Positions 11,336 to 62,450 of a DNA stretch of 64,000 nt are shown in pieces; the first letter of the stretch is position 1, and every line of letters starts with the position of its first letter. The DNA comes from Lepas anatifera. Taxonomy: Eukaryota; Arthropoda; Thecostraca; Lepadidae. Location of the stretch: NCBI GenBank assembly GCA_034440635.1, contig JAOTON010001055.1, positions 186,001 through 250,000 on the forward strand, given 5' to 3'. The notes beneath the pieces were generated by a model. The model was given only the letters and a program-made list of their open reading frames with translations. It was not told the origin of the DNA and searched no databases. A program made the position numbers and the translations under genes.

Positions 11336-14300
11336 GTGAGTAAACCGCAGTGGCATAATCATATTTGGGGCTTTAGGTCACACGGGCAGCGTAGTTCATA
11401 GAGCGCCAGCAGGGGTGGATTCCTTTCGGAGTGGAAGGCTTTGTGCACCTGCGAGGTAAGAACAGAAGTACGACTTGTTTCTCGGAAACGACTTCAATAC
11501 CTAGTGACTTAATGAACAACCTAGATGCACACGTAGGATATCAGGTGTCTGGGAAAGTCTGGGATGAGACGGAGGAGACAAGTGGCGCCGCACTTCAGAG
11601 GTGTACCACAGGTGCCGCCACCTTTGTTCGACTTATTAGCGGGGCGTCGTGACTTGTATCCCAGGGCGGCAGCTATGGCTTGTCATTGCGCTGTGTGCTT
11701 TTAGCTTTACAAGCGGAACGTACAATTCTACCGCAAAGAAGAAAAGCGTAGCTGTAGTGTATTTGCACATGTGTTGCCCTTTCTCTAATGACCCGTCAAA
11801 CTCCGTGCCGAGTGCGCCAATTGCCATTTTTATAGAAACGGCAGGCGTGCTCAGTTGCAGGTGCCATGTGCTAAATGAGTGATCAAGGAGATCTGTTAAG
11901 GTTGTGGTCAAAGAGACCTGTCAAGATTTCGATTGGGCCAAAGTAAGCGCAGCATGTAGTCGCCTGACTCTAAATTTGAACCTGTATCACTATGTGCCTT
12001 TCAGACTGCAGACAGCTGTTACCTCAACGCAAACATGGGTCGCTTGGCCCATGGATATGACTTAATCGTCTTTTCTTTGAGCTGTTTTTCTCTGTGCATG
12101 TACTTTTTATTCTGATTGTAACAAGGTTTGGGCCCGATTCAAATCATGTACTTGTACTGCATGTCAGAGCTGGATTTTCAGCTGGTCCACCATGTCGCTG
12201 TGCGCAATAGCAGTGCGTTTTTCTTTGCAGTTGCCGCCGGCAGACCTCTGGCGCAAAGCTGCAGTCAAACTCTACAATGAAATCATCTCAGCTCCAGATG
12301 GCTCAGCCTTCAAAAAAGTAAGTGGTTCAGCGAACATTGTCCGCGATCCGCCGTGCCAGAACACTGGATTTTGCAAATCCAGCTCAGCTAGGATGTCAAG
12401 CGTAAGTATAAAACGAATTAATCTGTAACTGCACCCCTCCTCCAACAGCCGCTGTCCATTGCCCCTCAGACAGCCGCTGTCCGGCCTGTAACTGCCCCCC
12501 TCCTCCGACAGCTGCTGTACGGCCTATAACTGCCCCCTCCCCCAACAGCCGTTGTCCGGCCTGTAACTGCCCCCTCCCCCAACAGCCGCTGCTTCCGGCC
12601 TGTAACTGCCCCCTCCCCCAACAGCCGCTGTCCGACCTGTAACTACACCCCTCCCCCAACAGCCGCTGTACGGCCTATAACTGCACCCCTCCTCCAACAG
12701 CCGCTGTCCGGCCTGTAACTGCCCCCTCCTCCAACAGCCGCTGTCGGGCCTATAACTGCCCCCTCCTCCAACAGCCGCTGTCGGGCCTGTAACTGCCCCC
12801 TCCTCCAACAGCTGCTGTCCATTCCCCCCAACAGCTGCTGTCCGGCCTGTAACTGCACCCCTCCTCCAACAGCCGCTGTCCGGCCTGTAACTGCACCCCT
12901 CCTCCAACAGCCGCTGTCCGACCTGTAACTGCACCCCTCCTCCAACAGCCGTTGTCGGACCTGTAACTGCACCCCTCCTCCAACAGCCGTTGTCCGGCCT
13001 GTAACTGCCCCCTCCCCCAACAGCCGCTGTCTGACCTGTAACTGCCCCCCTCCCCCAACAGCCGTTGTCCGGCCTATAACTGCCCCCTCCCCCAACAGCC
13101 GCTGTCCGGCCTGTAACTGCACCCCTCCTCCAACAGCCGCTGTACGGCCTATAACTGCCCCCTCCCCCAACAGCCGCTGTCCGACCTGTAACTGCACCCC
13201 TCCCCCAACAGCCGCTGTCTGACCTGTAACTGCACCCCTCCTCCAACAGCCGTTGTCGGACCTGTAACTGCCCCCTCCCCCAACAGCCGCTGTCTGACCT
13301 GTAACTGCCCCCTCCCCCAACAGCCGCTGTCTGACCTGTAACTGCCCCCGTCCTCCAACAGCCGCTGTCTGACCCGTAACTGCCCCCTCCTCCAACAGTC
13401 GCTGTCCGGCCTGTAACTGCCCCTCTTCCAACAGTCGCTGTCTGACCTGCAACTGCCCCCTTCCCCAACAGCCGTTGTCCGCCCTGTAACTGGCCCTCCT
13501 CCAACAGCCGCTGTCTGACCTGTAACTGCCCCTCCTCCAACAGTCGCTGTCCGGCCTGTAACTGCCCCCCGTCCTCCAACAGCTGCTGTCCATTCCCCCA
13601 ACAGCCGCTGTCTGGCCTGTAACTGCACCTCTCCCTCTACAGCCGCTGTCCGGGCTGCGCTCGGCGTTGGACTCGGACGCCCGGTTCTCAGAGGCCCGCT
13701 GTGCCAAGGTGCTGCCCATCGCCGTTGCCGCGTATCAGGATGGTCTGCCGGCCCGCTACTCACTGGAGTACCACACCAGCAAGGTAGGTCGTCGCCGCTG
13801 TCCCCTGCACTGAGCCAGGGGCTGCTATCCAGCTGGATACTGTACAGAGGCTCGATTATGCGACTGCCCTGGCTTTGCATAGAAGTTGAAACGGCCAAAA
13901 CTTAAGGAAAAGGAGGCGGACATTTTTAGGTAAGTTTTTCATGGAACGCGATAGATTATGCACATATTTGTATTTGTATATTTGTCGAGCTACTTTGGTT
14001 TTTTTTGCGCCAGATTCGATTTCTTTCGGTTTTTGCTTTCGTATTTTGTGCTCTACTCATATTTCATCCAAAAATATCGATTTCAGCCGAGGCCCAGCTT
14101 AATAATTATATCACGATTGTGAGGTCAAGGCAAAAATGGCTCCTAACCAGGGGAACTTTTATGGTTTAAATTTGAAAAATATATTTGAAAAATATTATTT
14201 AAATTGAAACATGAAAAAACTCAGCCTAAGTTGGAAATTTTGCAGTCTCTCATTCATTCTGATCTTCCACCGGATCTTTTGTCGGTGATGATTTTCTCGA

Positions 14301-20300: not shown

Positions 20301-23300
20301 CACCGCCAGCTCGGGACCTGGCGGCAATCAGTTGACAATAAAATTTACTGAAACTCTTTTTGTGTCTACAAAATAGGATAAATAAATATAATAAAATATT
20401 ATATTCACCTGTAACTTCCTCAGTAGATATATGTATTGATGGAAACTTTCTGGCTCTGTAGCCACCCTATGCTTTTCCAGCAGTCAGCTATCCTGTGCCA
20501 GCTGTAAAAATTGCTGTCATTGGCCATGGCTGAGCGGCCCGCTCCGTTTTACCTTTACTCTATTGCCTTGACCGGGCCGATAAGTGGCATCTCCAGCGCG
20601 GTGTTGGGCCGTCGACCGTGGTGACCTTGGCAGTTGCCCGCGACTGTTCACAGGGGCGCTGGCGTCGATGGGCGGCCGGGGGCGGGAGGGACTAGCCGGC
20701 TGCTGCGCGGCACTGTTGTGACGAGGGGCTACCGCGGTACTGTGGTGGAAATTCTCAATTCTTGGCGTTGAGCATTGTGTGTTTGGTGCGCTGCTCCTGA
20801 GCGGTTAGATACAGAGGCGTCGGCGCTCTAAATCGGAGAACAGACTCTCGCGCGGGCGTACTCTGCATCCTTCAACTTATTAGCCGGGACCGGCTCAGGG
20901 AACGGGATGAAGATCGTGGTGCTGGGCGCCTCTGGACAGACGGGGCAGTGTTTGGTGGACCAGGCCCTGGAGGCAGGTCACACGGTCACTGCCATCGTCC
21001 GCACCCCCTCCAAAATCACCCAACAACACGACAATCTCAAAGTTGTGAAGGGGGATGTGTTCTCTGCTGAGGAGCTGACTGAAGCCTTCAAGGACCAGGA
21101 GGCGGTGTTGTCGACTCTAGGCTTCTCTCGCAGCACCAACCCGCAGACGGGCTACACGGACTCGATGAAGGCTGCGGTCACTGCCATGCGAGCCAACAAC
21201 GTGCCTCGACTCATCGTGATGACGGCGCAATTCACAGACATCGTGTCGGCGCAGGGACGGGGGTTTCTGATCAACTGGATTCTGATACCCTTCATCAAAC
21301 GGGTGCTGATCAACATGAAGGAAATGGAAGACTGGCTGGCGGCCGAGGTCAGTGACCTGAACTGGACGGTGGTACGGCCTGGAGGACTGAACAATAAGGC
21401 AAAGCTGGACCAGACGCCTCTACAGCAGGAGGGGAGCCAGTTTGTAGAAGACGAAGCCGCGGCAACGATGATTCCAAGAGCCAATGTCGCGGCCTTCATG
21501 TTATCCCAGCTCGGCGAGGAGAACTACACTCGCAAGGTGGTGGCGATCGCCATGAAGTGATTGAACATGATGGCGTTCGTGATTCTGTGGACGGCGATGG
21601 TGATGGTGGAGACCGCGTTGGCCGTGATGGCGATACAACTGGAGGAGGAAGATGAGGAGGACGAAGAGATCGAGCTTGATTGGGAGCAGGGGCTACCACA
21701 CCTCTGGTTTGCTGTGTAACTGTGATACTTGGACTTGATGCAGCGACAAGCCCATGTGCTTGTGGAAAAGTTGTGGCAGCAAGGGGTGCATGTTGGTCAG
21801 ACTCGCTTACGGCTCCTGTGATGCTGCAGCAGCTTCAACTAGTGAGAGCAGTAGCTGCATTTTCTGTCCACGCTTAACCGATACATATCAATGTGATGTT
21901 TGCAAGCTAATTGACCTGTCTTACTTTCACTGGTCGCTCGTTTATTGCTTCGCTTCCCCTGACTTTTGCAGTAAATAGTGCTCTCTACCTGGATATATGT
22001 AGCTATCCATATGCATTTTGCGAAGGTTAATGTATACTTTTCTGTATAATTTTTCAAATAAAGGTAATGAAACTCTCTCGTTAATATATTTAACGAATTG
22101 CGTTGAGCCCAGGAACCTACAAAAAAACCATCGTCTTACTAAGTTTTTTTTAACACGCGCACTGGGGGGGCCTCGGGGCCCCACCTGTTTTAGGTGGCCG
22201 GAAACCGCTTGCGCGGAAAACGAAACTTGGCCACATTTAACAGAATTTATGCGTCGATTGGTGAAACTTTTGAAATCGGCCGAATTTTTGACTTATAGGC
22301 TTAAAATCAGACCTGCATTTTGAGATCGCCGTAACGCGCGGTCGGACCGTTGTTGCATTGAGTCGGTGGTGACGTCTAACGTCTTGGGGACTATATGTGG
22401 TCTTCCATGAGTCGGTCGGTGGTGGTAGGTTATCTGTTTTAGGTCACTGACCACTGGCGTCCGGCCATGAGGTTCCCCGTCGACTTATTATGTGCGTTGG
22501 TGGGTCCCCATACAAGGTAGGTATGTGGTAGGTCATTGGGAGGTTTCTTTCGCCAAGTGGCTACGTGTTGTAGTGTAATAATGTGTTACATATGGTGACC
22601 TTAAGGTCATGACCTGTGCCTTGCCCAAGTTGTGGGAGCCTTTTAGACCTCTTTGAACCTTGTCGTTTGTTATTCCGCCTTTTCCTGTATGCATTTATAT
22701 CGATACCGTGGCATATTTGACTTTACCTGTTTGCTTGGATTTGCCTGGTGAATTGGTTTGTCCTGCCCCCCCCTAGTGGGTTTTTTACCCTCTTTTGATT
22801 TGGGGCCTCCCCCTGGGTGTGCCGCCCCGGGTGTTAAGGCAGTGCTGTGTTAATAACCATTTGCTGCCGGGTGAGGCCGGGCCTAATCTAGCTGCCAGGA
22901 AATGACTCGAGACTCCCACACCGGCACACACCGGAAATCCAACCGGTCTTACCTCCGATGGTATCGCGGTGACTTGCCATTATACTGGTTACGTAACGAT
23001 ACCCATGAGCGTCGAAGGCAGGAGGACAGGAGACGCCCGACCCAAACTGGCGAACCAGAGCGACCTTTACCCAATATTTTCGGGTTTGGACTATAACTTC
23101 CTCCTTTGAGGGGACCTACGTAAATGTTCAAATTGTTTGCTGAAGTATATCTATAGCATTTTCAGAGACGGCCAATACTTTCAAACTTCGCCCCTCACCC
23201 CTCCCCCGATCATCGCGAGTGGGGCGTTTGATCCTCTAACAAAGATTCGGTGGGGATGCCCCCGACGGTACCTAGCACTTTACTTGTAACGCGAAAGTGA

Positions 23301-29300: not shown

Positions 29301-32300
29301 CCTCCCAATTAGGAAGTACTGCTCCTGTGTCATAGATTAGATGATCATAAACTGGACATCCCAGAGGAAGAAGTGTACTGATTCGATCACACCAGCGTCC
29401 GGCCAGTCAGTTCCGTCAGCATCGCCCCCCGCCGGCACGCGCCACAGCACCTCACTCTCTATTTACCGTGGAATCACAACAGTCGGCATTGCCTGGACAA
29501 ACATTGAGAACTTAAACGTCTTTTTTGCATTGATGCCGTCAACTATGTTTACAAGCCTGGTCGGATCACAATTTCTCTTCACTGCACTGCAATAGCCACC
29601 ACCTTGCGGGTATGATCAGTCTCCTGCACCTGGGAGATTATAAATGCCGCAACGTTTGCCCTCGGAATAGCGGTGGAAGCTTTAGCATCGGCCACAAACT
29701 GAGCTCCCTCCTCCTGAAGTGGTACCTGGTCCAGCTTTGCTCTGTTGGTGAGAATACCTGGCCGTGCCACAGTCCAGTCGATGTCCTGGACCTCTGTCAT
29801 CAGCCAGTCCTCCATCACCTTCATGTCTTTCAGCACCTCCTTGATCATGGGAATGATGAACCAGTTGTACATGACGCCACGGCCCGACGTGAGGTCTGTG
29901 TAGTAGGCGGTCATCACCACCAGTCTGGAGATGTTGGTCGCTCGCATGGCGGCTACGATCGCCCTCATCGACTCGGAGTAGCCCTCCGGACGGAAACTGA
30001 AGCCCAGAGTTTTCGAGAAGCCCAGCACGGATACTACGGCGTCGTGGTCCTTGAAGGCAGCCGTGAGCTCCTCGGAGGAGAAGACGGACGCCTGCACCAG
30101 TTGTAGGTTGGCGTGCTGTTTGGTGACTTTGGACGGAGTGCGCACGATGCCGGTGACCGAGTAGCCGGCCGCCAGAGCCTCGTCCAGCACGCACGCCCCC
30201 GTGCGTCCACTGGCGCCCAGCACAACTACCTTCATTTTGCCTCTGTATACACGCAGGGCTTAGCTTAATTTGCAGGGCGTTCCGTTTCTCTGCACCTCTC
30301 CGTATTGGTTGTTTTTTCCAGTACCGGGTACTGGGTGGACGCCACGCGACACAGTCCAGAGACAGCAGCCGATTGCCGCCGCGGCTTGGTCGGTGCGCAG
30401 GAATGTGCTGTCCGGTCGTTATTTTCTGTACTGCCCCGTCACCGTGATTCTCAGTAGCACGCGCCGGTCCTCCGCGACTCGCCGGCACTGCGCCGTCCTA
30501 CCGACTGCCCGCCCTCCGCCCTCCCCCCCCGCCCTCCCCGCCAGCCTGCCGCCGGATACCCACAACAGTGGTGGATGCAGGGCTTCATTTCGGGGAGAGG
30601 GCTGGGGCTCGAGCCTCCCCGTCATTGCCTGGGAACAGCCTTCGGCCGTGCAATTGCTACACGCACTCTGAAAGTTCGAACGGGTGCTTGAACTTCCTAG
30701 CCCCCTTGTATGCACCACTGATCACACCAATCATAAGCGTCGCCAATGGCAAGAAGGTGGGCGGCCAGTCAATATTCAACCTGCTGCTGATAATACACTT
30801 TTCCGCTAGAGCCAAAAACTTTGTCGGATTTGGGCCCATTCTTGCCTTCCGCATTGGCTAGGTAAGTATCCCAATTTGTTTCCAACTCGGCTGGAATCGG
30901 AATGTTTTTAATGAGAAATGGGGACCAGGAACACCCCCTCCCCCATTCCGATGCGTATGACACCAAGGCTTATGTAACATGCAGCTGCAGAAGTACCCGC
31001 ATTTACTCGTACGAGCCGCACTGGTATCATGCGTGTTCAGCCGAGTGGCGCTGCAGTGCCGCCGGCCTGTTTCAGGGTGTTGTGTGCCGCATCGAGCCGG
31101 GCCTCGAGCAGTTCACCTGGAAATTTGTATACTGGTTGATAAGATAGGTCTTTCCACGAAGAGATGAAATTGCCTACGTTTCGAGCTAACTTTTCTAAGG
31201 CAAAGAAAAACCCGCGATTGGTCTACAAAAAAGAAACTCGTGATGGTTTGCAGTTTGGCCCGGTGGTTTCAAGTGTGGATGCCCATCGGCTCGATACTGA
31301 ATATCAATTGCAGACGAAGCTCTCAGCGTTTTAAAGCTATGTTGGATGACAGAGAAGCTGAGGTCTCGAAAGAATCGAGTGTGTTGGGAGAAGATTGAAT
31401 TGAATTTTCAAGTACTGCTACCTATACTTGTTTGTTCCCATGCGGACAATTTTAAGCTAGTACCTATTAACATAGAGCATATAGACTGCTAAGAACTGGC
31501 CCGGACCTCCAAATACCTGACCTTGTTCCCAAATCCCTGCATGCTCCGGCTGGCAGCTGGAGTATGCAGGGATAGTGTTCCGCTGACGTACGGGCGGTCC
31601 GCCCTGCTCCCCACAACATCCCCTCGGCGGAGCACGCCAGTACGGTGTCCCCTGACATACGGGCGGTGTGCCCTGCTCCCCACAACATCCCCTCGGCGGA
31701 GCACGCCAGTACGGTGTCCCCTGACATACGGGCGGTGTGCCCTGCTCCCCACACCCTCCCTTCGGCGGAGCACGCCGGAGCGGTGTCCCCTGACATACGG
31801 GCGGTGTGCCCTGCTCCCCACATCCTCCCTTCGGCGGAGCACGCCGGAGCGGTGTCCCCTGACATACGGGCGGTGTGCCCTGCTCCCCACACCCTCCCTT
31901 CGGCGGAGCACGCCAGTACGGTGTCCCCTGACATACGGGCGGTGTGCCCTGCTCCCCACACCCTCCCTTCGGCGGAGCACGCCGGAGCGGTGTCCCCTGA
32001 CATACGGGCGGTGTGCCCTGCTCCCCACACCCTCCCTTCGGCGGAGCACGCCAGTACGGTGTCCCCTGACATACGGGCGGTGTGCCCTGCTCCCCACACC
32101 CTCCCTTCGGCGGAGCACGCCAGTACGGTGTCCCCTGACATACGGGCGGTGTGTCCTGCTCCCCACACCCTCCCTTCGGCGGAGCACGCCAGTACGGTGT
32201 CCCCTGACATACGGGCGGTGTGCCCTGCTCCCCACACCCTCCCTTCGGCGGAGCACGCCGGAGCGGTGTCCCCTGACATACGGGCGGTGTGCCCTGCTCC

Positions 32301-35300
32301 CCACACCCTCCCTTCGGCGGAGCACGCCGGAGCGGTGTCCCCTGACATACGGGCGGTGTGCCCTGCTCCCCACACCCTCCCTTCAGCAGAGCACGCCAGT
32401 ACGGTGTCCCCTGACATACGGGCGGTGTGCCCTGCTCCCCACACCCTCCCTTCGGCGGAGCACGCCAGTACGGTGTCCCCTGACATACGGGCGGTGTGCC
32501 CTGCTCCCCACACCCTCCCTTCGGCGGAGCACGCCGGAGCGGTGTCCCCTGACATACGGGCGGTGTGCCCTGCTCCCCACACCCTCCCTTCGGCGGAGCA
32601 CGCCGGAGCGGTGTCCCCTGACATACGGGCGGTGTGCCCTGCTCCCACACCCTCCCTTCGGCGGAGCACGCCAGTACGGTGTCCCCTGACATACGGGCGG
32701 TGTGCCCTGCTCCCCACACCCTCCCTTCGGCGGAGCACGCCAGTACGGTGTCCCCTGACATACGGGCGGTGTGCCCTGCTCCCCACACCCTCCCTTCGGC
32801 GGAGCACGCCAGTACGGTGTCCCCTGACATACAGGCGGTGTGCCCTGCTCCCCACACCCTCCCTTTGGCGGAGCACGCCAGTACGGTGTCCCCTGACATA
32901 CGGGCGGTGTGCTCTGCTCCCCACACCCTCCCTTCGGCGGAGCACGCCAGTACGGTGTCCCCTGACATACGGGAGGTGTGCCCTGCTCCCCACACTCTCC
33001 CTTCGGCGGAGCACGCCGGAGCGGTGTCCCCTGACATACGGGCGGTGTGCCCTGCTCCCCACACCCTCCCTTCGGCGGAGCACGCCGGAGCGGTGTCCCC
33101 TGACATACGGGCGGTGTGCCCTGCTCCCCACACCCTCCCTTCGGCGGAGCACGCCAGTACGGTGTCCCCTGACATACGGGAGGTGTGCCCTGCTCCCCAC
33201 ACTCTCCCTTCGGCGGAGCACGCCGGAGCGGTGTCCCCTGACATACGGGCGGTGTGCCCTGCTCTCCACAACCTCCCTTCGGCGGAGCACGCCAGTACGG
33301 TGTCCCCTGACATACGGGCGGTGTGCCCTGCTCCCCACACCCTCCCTTCGGCGGAGCACGCTGGAACGGTGTCCCCTGACATACGGGCGGTGTGCCCTGC
33401 TCCCCACACCCTCCCTTCGGCGGAGCACGCCGGAACGGTGTCCCCTGACATACGGGCGGTGTGCCCTGCTCCCCACACCCTCCCTTCGGCGGAGCACGCC
33501 AGTACGGTGTCCCCTGACATACGGGCGGTGTGCCCTGCTCCCCACACCCTCCCTTCGGCAGAGCACGCCAGTACGGTGTCCCCTGACATACGGGAGGTGT
33601 GCCCTGCTCCCCACACCCTCCCTTCGGCGGAGCACGCCAGTACGGTGTCCCCTGACATACGGGCGGTGTGTCCTGCTCCCCACACCCTCCCTTCGGCGGA
33701 GCACGCCAGTACGGTGTCCCCTGACATACGGGCGGTGTGCCCTGCTCCCCACACCCTCCCTTCGGCGGAGCACGCCGGAGCGGTGTCCCCTGACATACGG
33801 GCGGTGTGCCCTGCTCCCCACACCCTCCCTTCGGCGGAGCACGCCGGAGCGTGTCCCCTGACATACGGGCGGTGTGCCCTGCTCCCCACACCCTCCCTTC
33901 AGCAGAGCACGCCAGTACGGTGTCCCCTGACATACGGGCGGTGTGCCCTGCTCCCCACACCCTCCCTTCGGCGGAGCACGCCAGTACGGTGTCCCCTGAC
34001 ATACGGGCGGTGTGCCCTGCTCCCCACACCCTCCCTTCGGCGGAGCACGCCGGAGCGGTGTCCCCTGACATACGGGCGGTGTGCCCTGCTCCCCACACCC
34101 TCCCTTCGGCGGAGCACGCCGGAGCGGTGTCCCCTGACATACGGGCGGTGTGCCCTGCTCCCCACACTCTCCCTTCGGCGGAGCACGCCAGTACGGTGTC
34201 CCCTGACATACGGGCGGTGTGCCCTGCTCCCCACACCCTCCCTTCGGCGGAGCACGCCGGAGCGGTGTCCCCTGACATATGGGCGGTGTGCCCTGCTCCC
34301 CACACCCTCCCTTCGGCGGAGCACGCCGGAGCGGTGTCCCCTGACATACGGGCGGTGTGCCCTGCTCCCCACACCCTCCCTTCGGCGGAGCACGCCAGTA
34401 CGGTGTCCCCTGACATACGGGCGGTGTGCCCTGCTCCCCACACCCTCCCTTCGGCGGAGCACGCCAGTACGGTGTCCCCTGACATACGGGCGGTGTGCCC
34501 TGCTCCCCACACCCTCCCTTCGGCGGAGCACGCCGGAGCGGTGTCTCGCCGACACCTTCCTGTCCCAGTTTGTTCCCTACAGTCTAAGTGTTCCGCGGTT
34601 CCTTGACTGGAGCACGGCGTTCCTTTCTGGCACGCGCGGACCGGTAACCCGCTCACTCTGTCGGCAGCTGGATCACGCGCAGGCGGTGTTCCGCTCGCAC
34701 GCGCGCGGCCCGTCGTGCGCCCTGTACCGGGGCCAGCTGCAGGCCGAGTGCGACGCCCTCTGGCGTCAGGGTCGGCAGATCTGCGAGACGCTCAGTCTGA
34801 CCGGCAACCCGTGCATCAACCCGGTGCACAGGCTGCCGGGCGAGGCGGAGGACAGTGAGGACGAGGAGTGCAGGTGAGGAGCGGCTGCCAGAACGGCGGC
34901 TGGAGCTCTCGGCCCTTCGCACACGCTTGTGTTCATGTGGAGCTGATCCACGAGTGCTAAGCAGAAACGGGTTTGGTAGGTTTGGAATTGAAATTTGGGG
35001 CGAGGTTCGCCGTGCCGTGGAAAGTTTTCGAGATACGTGGTCAGACGAGCCGTGTAACCGTGCTGGACCTAGATATGTTTTTGATGCGACCTCAGACCTC
35101 GATGGCTCTATGACAGACGCCTGTTCCCTGGGCGCTGACTGCTGCCGTGGCCCGGCAGGAGGCCGGAGACGGAGCACTGTTCCGGCGTACGGTACCTGGC
35201 CACCTGCAACTGCGGCAGGAAGCAGCGGCAACGCGACGACCCCTTCCAGGTGGGCTGAACCCGCAACCCAGCTCCTGCGGAACAGATGGACACTTGTAAC

Positions 35301-38300
35301 TGCGCCCGAATCTTACTCGAATGAGCTCAAAGCTGGGAGGTCTTAGTACAACACAATTTACAGAAAATGGTTATGTTCATGTGTCTCGGTTGCAGCCTAC
35401 TTTTAGGTTTCTCGCAGGTTCGACACGTATTTTTTCTGGAAATGTATGCTCCTTCAATGATATTTAGCATTAAGCATTATTAAAGCCGTAATACATAGGG
35501 AACCTATTACATCGCCGTGGACAGTCTGTGAGTGTGATGACTCGTTACCATGGTAACAACGGGCGTGCTCTCGGGAAGGTACGCCGCGCCAACTACGACT
35601 TCTACGTCAGCGTGTCGGAGGGCTGCTGTCGCGGTCTTCAACAACATCAGTTCCCCGTGTTCCAGCCAGGCGCCACCGCCGGCAGGTAATGCCTCACGTC
35701 AACTCACTGCCGATGGAGGAATTGATCTTTAGGGAGACGCTACACTTTCTGCTTGCATATGTTTTATGTTTCACTGGTTAGGGGGCGATAGGTGGTCGTG
35801 TGGAAGGGGGCAGGCTGAGTGTGAGCTGGTCACACTGCCTGTATCCGCTCAGGCACCAAAGATCAGCGCCGAGCGGGTGGGGATGCGCCAGCTGCCAGAG
35901 ACTGTACGGTGCGGTGGCGACTGTTGGCCTGATATACGCCCCTCGCAGGGCGGCGGCGGTGGTGTCGGCCGTGGGAGGGCGCTCCGGTAGCGCCGAGGCT
36001 CCGGCCGCTGACGCCGAGGAAGGCAGCATCTCACCCACCTTCGGACTCGGCCTCAGTGGGTATAACCGGGCCTCAACCACCCAGTGCGCTGAGGCTGACG
36101 GAGACGTGTTCCGTGCCATTACTTTTTGTCTTTTTCTTTAACAGCGAGTGATGGTGATCGCCCGATCAATCGCTCACTTTTGTCTCATCCGATATGCTTC
36201 TCATTCATTCAGTTTCCAAATCATTCAGGCAAACTGACTGAGGGTACCGTACCGGGGGGCTGGCTAATCTTCTGTTAACCGGGAGGCGTGCTGTGTAAAC
36301 CGTACTCTCCGTGTCTGGTTTGGATCGTGCGCTCCACCCCAGTGTAAATTACGTGCTCCGTCCCCAATGCGAACTGCGCGCTCCGTCCCTATTGAACTGC
36401 GCTCCGTCCCCAATGTGAACCGTGCGCTCCGCCCCCAGGCCAGGGTGAGGCGGATCAGGTGGACAGGGGGGCCGCTGAAGGCAGCAGCCCCTCCGACATC
36501 TCGCTCACCGTCAAAAAGGGTGAGCCCGCCTCTTCAGAAGCCCTTTATACTTTCTGCAATGTCGAGACCACTGAGGATGCTTCACTAGTAGAGGCAGTAG
36601 TGTCCACATTGTTGCACATCCATGTAATGTACAACAATGGGGACACCACTGCCTCCGTTGACAATCGATTTTCTGTCCGGATTTTAATAGTCTTCTGATG
36701 AAGTGTCTTTCATTAATGTTCCGAACTTGTGCAATAGTGTCTCAGAGATGGTATTGTGCAGGAAGGTACTGCAGAGTCCGCTGCGAGCACCGATGGGAGA
36801 TTTCTGCTGTTTTCAGCTCCGACCTGTACATACTTTAGTATTTAGAGGGAATGCAGCACCTTTGTATTGGGATTTCAACTGGTATATCCAGCTGATCACG
36901 TATACCGAAAAAACGGTTAAGAATCTTAATCACCCTGGAACACTCTGTGCTGTGCCCTTGCTGTGCTCGTAAATGCTGTGAGCAGTAGATACCGCCTGCT
37001 CCGGAGGAAGTTAATCGTCTGAAAACTGCTCCACAGAGGCGCGAAAGGAACCAGAGGTGCTCGCTTCGACCGAAGAGTACTTGGATGGGATGCTCACCAC
37101 CACTACTCCCCGCCATCTGTTGCCGGAGTACCCAAGCTTTAGTTTGGTGTGCGTCGGCCAGTCGTCCCTGTACTCACATGCCGTGGGTCTCAGCGGTTTC
37201 ATCCAGGTAAGCTGTGGCTTCACTTCCATCCTCGGATGTCAGGCAGAACTTTGTGGCACGCTCATGCTGGCGGACACGCAGGTCTTATTGATGGTCTACG
37301 ACAGCCAATGCCTAATGTGGCTATGCTTGATCCTGGACCTAGTGTGGTGGGGGTGTTCGAATATCCCTCGGGGTAGTTCCGGGGCTGCGAGAAATTCCGC
37401 TCCGCTTACACACTTCGTCCTTGATCGTACTCACAGCGTTTGCAAAATTTCAGGTCTGGGTCATTTCAGGCCATGTGGTGGCCCTCCCAAAAAATGTGTT
37501 GAGTGGCACCAGTCGGAGTAGGTTGAAAATGTATTTATTTGATATTTACACCATAATAATGGCACTGCAGAGTACCGCAAGTGGTGGTAGCGGAATCTTC
37601 AATGTCCATGGAAGGGTTTAATGAGCCATGGCCTCTCTGTCCGCGGTATGTTTTCCTCTCAAAATCGCAGTCTTAGGTCAGTCTCTAAGACCAAGTTCAA
37701 ACTTTGGACGCATGACCTTTGAGGTCGTCTGGGACTAGCTAAGTGCTTTTCAGACTCTGGTAACTTCGCAGAGAATGGTCTCAAAGGGCTTTTATTTTGC
37801 TATTACTACGATTGTACTGTCATTGCGAATGTATTATATGCATGATGACCATATCAAGTCAGAACTTGGGTCTGGTCGTTTTACATGCTGACCTCGTATA
37901 TGGTCCTGGGATAAATCGTTCCACTCTCCGTTATACAGATGTTGATGCCTGAATATTGTCTCTAACTTAAGCCAGTCAGAAGCCAGAGCTAAAAAATGTC
38001 ACTAACCAGTGACCTTTCACCTGTCATGACCTCCATATTGACCTGGGCCAAAGAAATGACTGGTATAGTGTCCCCTATCATTTCTCTCAGGCTATCTGCG
38101 TTGGGCAGTGTTCGTGCACCCCCTCCCATAAAAGGATGAGGGTCAATCGGAGACACACTGGGGTGGGATTAATTTTGTTCCAGATTTCAAAATAGTTCGA
38201 ACCAAATTAGTTAACTGAGACAGAAAGCGTGATGTAGTGTGCCCATCTGGGCCCAGAGACTCGAACAGCGGCGGTCTGTTATTGATGGAGCATGGCGTGG

Positions 38301-53696: not shown

Positions 53697-54660
53697 GGGA
53701 GCTTGGCCGCCGTGGCAGACCTCAGAACACTGCCGCTGTGGCAGACCTGAGAACACTGCCGCCGTGGCAGACCTGAGAACACTGCCGCCGTGGCAGACCT
53801 GAGAACACTGCCACCGTGGCAGACCTGAGAACACTGCCACCGTGGCAGACCTGAGAACACTGCCGCCGCGGCAGACCTGAAAACACTGCCGCCGTGGCAG
53901 ACCTGAGAACACTGCCACCGTGGCAGACCTGAGAACACTGCCACCGTGGCAGACCTGAGAACACTGACACCGTGGCAGACCTGAGCACACTGCCTCCGTG
54001 GCAGAGCTGAGAAATTTGTCGCCGTGGCAGACCTGAGAACACTGCCGCCGTGGCAAACCTGATAAAAATGTCGCCGCGGCAGAACTGAGAACACTGCCAC
54101 CGTGGCAGACCTGAGAACACTGACACCGTGGAAGAGCTGAGCACACTGCTACCGTGGCAGACCTGAGAAAAATGTCGCCCTGGCAGACCTGAGAACACTG
54201 CCGCCGTGGCAAACCTGATAAAAATGTCGCCGCGGCAGACCTGAGAACACTGCCACCGTGGTAGACCTGAGAACACTGACACCGTGGAAGAGCTGAGCAC
54301 ACTGCCACCGTGGCAGACCTGAGAAAAATGTCGCCCTGGCAGACCTGAGAACACTGCCACCGTGGTAAACCTCATAAAAATGTCGCCGTGGCAGACCTGA
54401 GAACACTGCCACCGTGGCAGACCTGAGAACAGTGAAGCCATGGTAGACCTGAGAGCACTGCCGCCGTGTGGCAGACCTGAGAACACTGTCACTGTGGCAG
54501 AGCTGAGAACAATAACATCGTGGCAGAACTGAGAACACTCGCTGTGGGCGACCTGAGAACACTCGCTGTGGCAGACCTGAGAACACTAGCTCGGCAGACC
54601 TGAGAACACTAGCTGTGGCCGACCTGAGAACATTCGCTGTGGCCGACCTGATAACCTAAG
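53697..54660. repeat. 26-bp minisatellite, about 37 copies
   Basis: The unit reads ACCGTGGCAGACCTGAGAAC plus ACTGCC. Across unit borders it forms CTGCCAC-C-GTGGCAG, a 7-bp inverted repeat with a one-base loop. Copies decay toward the right end. Minus-strand open frames of 145-256 codons over it come from the repeat. Confidence 0.95.
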
Positions 54661-56569: not shown

Positions 56570-56755
56570 GTGGGCGGTGCTGTTGAACAGGCCGGCTGCG
56601 TGAGACGGGCAGCGGTGCTGTTGAACAGGCTGGCTGCGTGAGACGGGCGGCGGTGCTGTTGAACAGGTTGGCTGCGTGAGACGGGCAGCGGTGCTGTTGA
56701 ACAGGCCGGCTGCTGAGACGGGCAGCGGTGCTGTTGAACAGGCTGGCTGCGTGCG
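56570..56755. repeat. 38-bp minisatellite, about 5 copies
   Basis: The unit is GGCTGCGTGAGACGGGCAGC plus GGTGCTGTTGAACAGGCT, with 36-38 bp variants. On the minus strand each unit ends in CCCGTCTCACGCAG, a 3'-splice-like string. No flanking exon is established. Confidence 0.9.
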
Positions 56756-59931: not shown

Positions 59932-62189
59932 AATGACCAACAATTCAATGTTATTAATTGAACAGTGACAAAAACAAATTTTCAAAAATGTCTAAGTAAT
60001 TTCACTATAAGAAGATTAAAAGCAGTGATTTCCTGACGTCCTGAAGTGATTTCTAACATGGAGGTAGCCTCACGGTGCCATTTTCACTGTGTCTAGATTT
60101 GCGGGGCACCGAAGAAAAAATGCGGATGCAAGGCACGTTGACAGGTCTGGCTAACTTCCGATTTTTTTCAGACAAGAGGACGTTTCTAAAAAAAATTGGG
60201 AGCCATGTACAGCTCATCGACTGTGGGTATGCTCTTATGAGGCAGGTACTTGCAAGCAATTGCTGAACGGATCCAGCCATCTCCAAACTCAAGGGCCGTA
60301 GGGGGAGTTCGACACGTTAGTGCGGAAGTAACCTCAGCTTATCACAGACCCTAACACCCAGCTGTGCACAAACTTTCCTCTCATCCTGTAGAAATCCTGT
60401 GCATTTCCAAACCTTCACTGAAAACAACAAATGAAAATGTTATTCGAAATACTGAACTGGAACAAATACGCCACCCTTCTTTTTTTCTTTCGCAGCTTCA
60501 TTTTTTTTGCTTAAATAAGTACCTGAGCAAGTTTACGTTATTAATGCATGAACATGGTCCCTGAAAATGTCCACCCATTTGACTCACTTGTACTCCACGC
60601 CCCTTCTGTACGTCCAAAACTAACCCCGCGCTGAATCATAGCATCCTGGCTAGATCGTAAATAGAACATTATTCAGACCTTTCCTCTTACCCCACTAACA
60701 AGCAAAGTCAACATTCATCAAGCCTCAGGCATAACTCTGTTAGAGACAGCTTCAATTTCACGGTGTTGGCTGTGCCAGCCCTCTTCGCAGCCAATCATTC
60801 TGATTCACCAGCGGCGCACTAGTAGGCGCCCAAAAAGCCTGTACCCGGCGGCCGGTGCCGGGACCCGGACCCCGCTCCAGTCTGGCCTCTCCCAGCGTCC
60901 GTCAGCCTGACCACCTGGCTGGCCGAGCAGGAATGTGACGAGTGGCGGGCCAGCTGTCTCGCCGAGAGGAGCTGGCCGACGGCTCACGCTGTGCGCGCCG
61001 CCCAGCTGTGACTCAGGCCCATCTGAATCACCTGGAATTGGAGAGCGGCCGGCACCCCGGCAATGCCTACTGCGTGCCGACTAACGAACAGCCACTTCTC
61101 TTCTGAGAATGAGTCACTCTGTGTGACAGGAGCATCTTTGACACTGCCAACAGTGTTTCACTGCCACTTTGGACCCGATTGTCCCATGTTACATATTTGA
61201 GGAACGGAAAACGTCATAACAATTTTCTGTTTGAAAGTCATCAAACTTTACAGCCACGACACAATCACATACAGTGTTCATGTCTTTCGTGATCTTCAGT
61301 CCGGTCCTGTCATTGGAGTCAATGAACAGCTTCCCCACTGGACAAGGAAGACAGACGTGCCGGGACATTCAGATGTTCCCTCTTCCGAACGCACGGCCAG
61401 ACGCCGGCGTCCGGCCCGTTTCCTGTTTGGCACCGGGTACAGGGCTGACAGGTACTGACGGCGGGCATCAGCACCCTCACCGGGCACCAGCAGCCCTCGC
61501 TCCGTCACAACACGCCCATCCTCGGCAGCCCCGTCCGCCCTGTACACCTATTTGTTCACCAAACCCAATTACATAATTCCTGATGCATATTCGGTTGCGC
61601 CATGACTTCTGTTTCGCACTTTTTCCTAGCGGTTTTCCCCAACGAACATTAATGGGAAGATACCTCCAAAGCCCCCCCTCTACTGAGCACAGCAATGACG
61701 CCAATCACTCCTCAACAAACATGCTTACTCGTTCCATAAAGAGCAAAGACAAAAGCTGAGCTTCCAGCCTGAACTGAATCACGTAGATGACTGATATGTT
61801 CGCACTTACATTAAATCACTGATGAACAAGGAATAATCATTTAGCGTTAATGATGAGGGAACATCCCTCTAGAACAGAAGTTCTCGTCAATTGCAACAGA
61901 CCTTTGAAAACAGCGAGTGGCGAAACAAATATGCGCTACCAAACCATCATTAGACTTTAAGTATTCCGATTCAGAATGCGGGCACAGGGAGGGCAGGGCA
62001 CCCACTCACTGTCAGTCCCACACCGCAGCCAACCCATCGGCAGAGGTACCGCCCAGTCATTACTGTAACAAAGAGGTGGCGTGACGGAGAGTGTCGCGGC
62101 CGCGTGCTGCGCCGTCACGAGCGTGACGAGACCCGGCACTCGTGTGACACGCGCCCAGGTGTCGAGTGTGTGATGGGATCAGCGGCACG

Positions 62190-62450
62190 CCAGGGGTACC
62201 GCGGCCGCGGTCAGCGGCACGCCAGGGGTACCGCAGCCGCGGTCAGCGGCACGCCAGGTACCGCGGCCGCTGTAGCGGCACGCCAGGGTACCGCGGCCGC
62301 GGTCAGCGGCACGCCAGGGTACCGCGGCCGCGGTCAGCGGCACGCCAGGGGTACCGCGGCCGCTGTCAGTGACACGCCAGGGTACCGCGGCCGCGGTCAG
62401 GGCAGCCAGGTACCGCGGCCGCGGTCAGCGGCACGCCAGGGGTACCAAGG
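62190..62450. repeat. ~32-bp GC-rich minisatellite, about 8 copies
   Basis: The unit is GGTACCGCGGCCGCGGTCAG plus CGGCACGCCAGG. Most units carry the 14-bp perfect palindrome ACCGCGGCCGCGGT. Short internal deletions give 27-33 bp variants. Confidence 0.92.

Follow-up and report, generated by a model that had tools for sequence, protein, structure and literature searches.

Duplicated sites built in the laboratory have served to study how the spliceosome chooses among equivalent 3' splice sites. Among natural sequences, the human CBS gene carries a 31-bp VNTR (c.1444_1467+7) in 16–21 copies (PMC2630376). According to these coordinates, the unit of this polymorphic minisatellite spans an exon-intron boundary, and a splice site is thus repeated 16–21 times, which makes it comparable to the SMG8 array that we describe here. 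However, the CBS unit joins 24 nt of exon to 7 nt of the following intron and contains a donor, whereas the SMG8 array repeats a complete acceptor with its branch site 34 times. A second CBS variant, 844ins68, resembles the SMG8 array in that part of the intron 7/exon 8 junction is duplicated, and the distal copy of this 68-bp acceptor-junction duplication is favoured, but it comprises just two copies of 68 bp. In the consulted part of the same report the 844ins68 sites are termed donors, although the junction of intron 7 with exon 8 would be an acceptor (PMC2630376).

Regarding the pathway, feedback by NMD on the mRNAs of its own factors operates in human cells, zebrafish and worm, and depletion of NBAS in HeLa cells increased SMG8 mRNA (PMC3783168). 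SMG8 belongs to this pathway, in which the mRNAs of the factors respond to loss of NMD; however, the NMD-inducing features named in the consulted part of that report are long 3' UTRs and uORFs, and not acceptor arrays. In C. elegans, the intronic CeRep25B minisatellites also lie near exons, in this case alternative ones, and are associated with splicing decisions, but those repeats carry regulatory oligomers, and copies of a splice site belonging to the gene itself do not feature in the consulted part of the source (PMC4039745). Our literature search on repeated or tandem splice acceptors and on splice-site minisatellites, at the level of titles and abstract openings, found no report of an acceptor array. 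The unusual features of the present case are its scale, the presence of a complete acceptor with branch site in the unit and the recurrence of such arrays across genes of one genome.

The SMG8 gene and the array-bearing intron

We analysed a window of 64,000 nucleotides of Lepas anatifera (contig JAOTON010001055.1, positions 186,001 to 250,000 of the forward strand); window features are given on its plus strand. The exons around the array matched the Smg8_Smg9 Pfam domain (PF10220, E 9.1e-17) and aligned with residues 421–525 of the solved SMG8 structure (PDB 6l54). Twelve window exons, when joined, gave 576 residues, with 74% identity over 99% of that length to SMG8 of Amphibalanus amphitrite. 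All three comparisons agree with the gene named in the original prediction. A genome search recovered nine SMG8 pieces, from C995:177334 to 225553; as pieces lie upstream, at C995:177334 and 178712, the exon that follows the array must be the fifth or a later one of the coding exons, and not exon 3 as had been proposed.

The exon upstream of the array (exon B, 12231..12317), placed by protein alignments, ends with FKK in phase 0, as expected from the original reading. The array-bearing intron starts with the donor GTAAGT at 12318..12323 and is followed by exon C (13643..13783), which was placed by the Pfam, structure and Amphibalanus alignments. The exon segment that recurs in the array derives from the first 15 nt of exon C. 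The Amphibalanus SMG8 protein aligned without gaps across the junction of exons B and C, which supports normal splicing from donor 12318 to acceptor 13643; on this homology we regard 12318/13643 as the real junction. A second GTAAGT in the same intron (12402..12407), the use of which would add 84 nt in frame, was rejected as alternative donor: the 28 residues added in this way lowered the Pfam score from 61.1 to 55 and have no counterpart in Amphibalanus SMG8.

We also observed an intronless flavin-reductase-like (NAD(P)-binding) ORF of 217 aa (window 20907–21557, plus strand), nested in the SMG8 intron 13784–34667. Its identity was 75% with a Pollicipes pollicipes protein and 67% with one of Amphibalanus; together with the SMG8 match, these best named protein matches point to a barnacle.

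Anatomy of the array

The predicted array of copied 3' splice sites was recovered, with 34 CAG acceptors in tandem at 12423..13642, 33 of them decoys ahead of the real acceptor, which belongs to the last copy. TRF reported a 37-bp period and 30.4 copies (score 1323), and most units were 37 or 38 bp long. The 33 intervals between acceptors comprised 30 of 36–39 bp and three of 22–25 bp; none was of double length, so the array hides no copy without a CAG. This served as the check in SMG8 for delimiting units by CAG, which was done for the counts of motifs and of column variation. In transcript order, a typical long unit is composed of 15 nt copied from the start of the exon (CCGCTGTCCGGCCTG), then TAAC, followed by a C-rich tract and finally CAG, with 22–23 nt from the branch site to the CAG. 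The units are repeated in register, fall within the range of 10–100 bp and span the splice site, given that each includes the CAG and the adjoining 15-nt exon copy. TAAC was present in 29 of the 30 long units and replaced by CAAC in the remaining one, while ACAG was kept in 33/33 units. The proposed 37-bp unit with UAAC, tract, CAG and exon copy thus describes most of the array, except for the three short intervals and the single CAAC. Similarly, the array does lie at the predicted locus (12424..13783), but it starts at about 12423, and positions 13643–13783 are the real exon.

The upstream edge of the array reads CTG-TAAC (12423..12429). The exon copy ends in a CTG that matches the exon CTG at 13655–13657, and the founding event looks like a duplication with breakpoints sharing this 3-bp microhomology. 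When a 75-bp piece of the array was searched against the whole genome, the best-scoring candidates gave 17 DNA matches, all of them inside the SMG8 array and confined to one contig. Long antisense ORFs across the array were taken as a putative by-product of the repeat.

Reading frames from the decoy acceptors

Starting from the phase-0 donor, 32 of the 34 acceptors meet a stop. The two open ones are the real acceptor at 13643 and the acceptor at 13583, in a short variant unit (13583..13604) that frame analysis predicts to add 20 residues in frame; the statement that only the last unit continues into the exon was therefore wrong by one. For 28/34 acceptors the stop is the sixth codon (PLSGL* and variants), close to the Pro-Leu-Ser-Gly-Leu-stop foreseen for almost any acceptor, and for 4/34 it comes later. 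The stop is usually the UAA of the branch motif UAAC, consistent with the proposal that one TAAC could act both as stop and as branch point. All units appear to descend from one duplication, so a stop after each of them represents one event with a chance of about one in three, and not 33 events. A stop after a copied acceptor arises free, as UAAC and UGAC contain UAA and UGA, which are in frame about one time in three.

The usual limit for NMD is a stop 50–55 nt before a junction. The predicted isoforms from 32/34 acceptors have their stop farther upstream than this, with 161 nt between the junction and the closest of these stops. The decoy RNAs are therefore expected to be NMD targets, in line with what had been predicted for mis-spliced SMG8 RNA.

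Acceptor strength

All acceptors were scored with a hand-typed weight matrix. The scoring of every unit, which the original prediction had called for, gave 10.2 for the real acceptor in the last unit (13605..13642) and 3.3–6.8 for the 33 decoys by this matrix, a gap of more than 3 bits. With the same matrix, 27 of the 33 decoys scored 6.1–6.8 and exceeded 8 of the 11 remaining SMG8 acceptors that were placed within the window. These 27 decoys also fell in the range of the kinase acceptors (median 5.4 over the best-scoring sites of all 40 loci, near-duplicates included). The SMG8 decoys thus look competent and the real site looks exceptionally good. One further AG of the intron, at 12469, had a score of 7.0 by this matrix, and the acceptor of exon F in SMG8 scored -3.4 and may be misplaced. 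Masking of the decoys by RNA structure was rejected, since ACAG was predicted to be paired in all 34 copies, the real one included.

Arrays at other exons

Two further SMG8 acceptors were associated with arrays. At an upstream SMG8 exon (locus L025, 928–1508) we found a 29-bp array of 20 copies, whose last CAG was taken as the acceptor by reading the exon against the Amphibalanus protein. It contains 20 acceptors including the real one (scores 1.6–4.1), its units lack an exon copy and the frame of the exon stays open along the array. A second array within the window abuts the SMG8 acceptor before the exon at 36439 (36329..36438; TRF and pattern), with units of about 25 bp in five copies counted by pattern; the three middle copies have no AG, while the first and the last (real) ones have CAG.

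We then considered 40 exon starts of kinase genes, or 38 after the removal of L045 and L054 as near-duplicates of L043 and L051. These loci were hand-picked from 139 matches, favouring short matches, before the sequence was seen, and for each of them the AG with the highest score close to the match edge was taken as the acceptor, in place of an annotated splice site. In 2 of the 38 exon starts the repeat unit contained both acceptor and exon start (95% CI 0.6–18%). The first, an RSK-like kinase (L067), has 15 acceptors, all preceded by CTGAC and accompanied by 27 nt of copied exon. Of the 14 decoys, 12 give ILLGADGHMF-stop or a closely similar reading, in which the stop is the in-frame UGA of the branch motif CTGAC; the other two stop as well. 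The second, a GSK3 gene (L063, 31/32 residues identical), has seven matched acceptors with scores of 3.0–3.9 (3.5 for the real one), counted by pattern and leaving aside an additional exon copy at the array start; five of its six decoys are open within the available sequence, which covers about the first 100 nt of the exon. Acceptor-like units were also present immediately upstream of the kinase exon in L057, and the arrays of L062 and L064 ended no more than about 20 bp from the edge of the match.

The real acceptor of the RSK-like gene is the weakest of its 15 by the same matrix, so a rule that decoys are kept weak fails there. More generally, we rejected the idea that the productive site is always the strongest, which is true in SMG8, false in the RSK-like gene and a matter of negligible difference in GSK3.

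Minisatellites, defined as three or more copies with a period of 9 or more, covered 10.2% of 143 segments of 900 bp from 13 loci chosen by hand-stepping through contig numbers, and single loci ranged from 0 to 41%. Nine arrays with 10 or more copies were counted in 194 kb, three of them within the SMG8 window. In the 200 bp before kinase exons the array coverage was 16%, against a background of 10% (p 0.11). Strong arrays occurred at 6/38 exon starts and 3/38 exon ends (Fisher p 0.48), and at a looser TRF score of 30 these values were 7/38 and 4/38, in both cases for windows set on match edges and not on annotated splice sites. Exon starts as hot spots for arrays were therefore rejected, as neither difference was significant. 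Within these small samples, arrays were about as frequent at splice sites as at other positions, which would be expected of repeats that can originate at any place and are frequently tolerated.

Finally, we compared the variation of splice-critical and other columns in the three arrays that copy an exon start. When pooled, the splice-critical columns were less variable (permutation p 0.012; one-sided Fisher 0.048), whereas none of the arrays was significant singly (p 0.15, 0.20 and 0.38). This could mean that decoy signals are maintained, with base context and homogenisation uncontrolled in the comparison, and it is the best hint, though a weak one, that decoys matter.

Explanations for the SMG8 array

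We consider it probable that the SMG8 array is a splice-acceptor minisatellite that was expanded by duplication and has been tolerated because its last copy is still used. A tandem duplication would have copied the end of the intron, from the branch site to the CAG (22–23 nt), together with the first 15 nt of the exon, and slippage or unequal exchange would have expanded the unit, placing 33 decoys before the real acceptor. Splicing to the last copy would yield normal SMG8 mRNA, while occasional use of a decoy would give an early-stop RNA that should be removed by NMD; the stop would be present because the exon segment that was copied is followed, in frame, by the branch motif UAAC. As a tolerated feature, the array would persist in a genome that commonly carries such arrays. 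We infer this origin, a preferential use of the last copy and a weak or absent selective effect. The original prediction had offered a simply tolerated expansion of a splice site as one of its two readings, and the similar arrays at other genes of this genome favour it. The array would thus test the cell's choice of splice site, and is probably no control switch special to SMG8. In this sense, introns that occur in nature and contain 34, 20, 15 or 7 acceptors of nearly identical sequence provide a test of position versus downstream exon sequence versus site strength, and in the RSK-like gene the strongest acceptor is not the last one. Where a genome is rich in minisatellites, gene models and variant calls may pick the wrong acceptor.

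A wider proposal, which we regard as unlikely, is that the genome holds a large and so far unrecorded class of splice-acceptor minisatellites (2/38 kinase exon starts, plus SMG8) in which the branch motif often supplies the stop and copy number sets a gene-by-gene leak into NMD, i.e. a fast-mutating dial of expression made out of the splice site.

The best surviving alternative for the SMG8 array, itself quite unlikely, is a general leak unconnected with NMD genes: in many genes of the barnacle, acceptor minisatellites would send into decay a share of transcripts that depends on array length, and so produce heritable, fast-mutating variation of expression. The occurrence of such arrays at several exons, the stops after 32/33 decoys in SMG8 and 14/14 in the RSK-like gene (two of the three exon-start-copying arrays) and the lower variation of splice-critical columns in the pooled arrays are consistent with this general leak, but the open GSK3 decoys (5/6, about 100 nt past the exon start) and the lack of a significant array excess at exon starts argue against it.

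The other reading of the original prediction was that decoy use gives NMD-sensitive SMG8 RNA, so that falling NMD raises SMG8, with array length setting the gain of the feedback. We consider this improbable. The stops from 32/34 acceptors, at least 161 nt before the junction, agree with it, as does the NMD feedback on NMD-factor mRNAs, including the rise of SMG8 mRNA upon NBAS depletion in HeLa (PMC3783168, consulted in part). However, the array anatomy is not specific to the pathway: the RSK-like gene, outside NMD, has an equal stop-bearing architecture, whereas the 20-acceptor array of SMG8 itself leaves the exon frame open. In addition, the productive acceptor is the strongest one in SMG8 by the hand-typed matrix, and the stop comes as a side effect of the branch motif. 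The proposed tuning of SMG8 by its own pathway thus gained no positive support.

Decoy exons, e.g. in OGT, have been proposed to cause intron retention or slow removal of introns. A corresponding delay in SMG8, where 34 branch sites and acceptors would engage U2AF and U2 unproductively so that the intron is retained or slowly removed, is very improbable: nearly every long unit has a branch site, tract and AG, and the term 'decoy' appears in the consulted parts of two papers on detention of the OGT intron (PMC12017769, PMC12061472), but the predicted pairing of ACAG is alike in decoys and real site.

Further minisatellites

The next SMG8 intron contains a 69-bp minisatellite of 43 copies (31579..34545, TRF; 95% matches), which ends 122 bp before the exon at 34668. 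It carries long open frames on both strands, as expected from a period that is a multiple of 3. Other minisatellites of the window were located at 53706–54655 (26-bp, 37 copies), 56574–56753 (38-bp, five copies) and 62179–62446 (about 31-bp, nine copies).

Arrays were also present at or just past the 3' ends of kinase exons in L089, L096 and L076. In particular, L096 repeats a 22-bp unit containing GTGAG, and the 40-bp unit of L089 may include the donor. The near-duplicate loci L043/L045 (similarity ratio 0.94) and L051/L054 (0.998) lie on different contigs and are perhaps uncollapsed alleles; pairs of this kind could reveal variation in array copy number.
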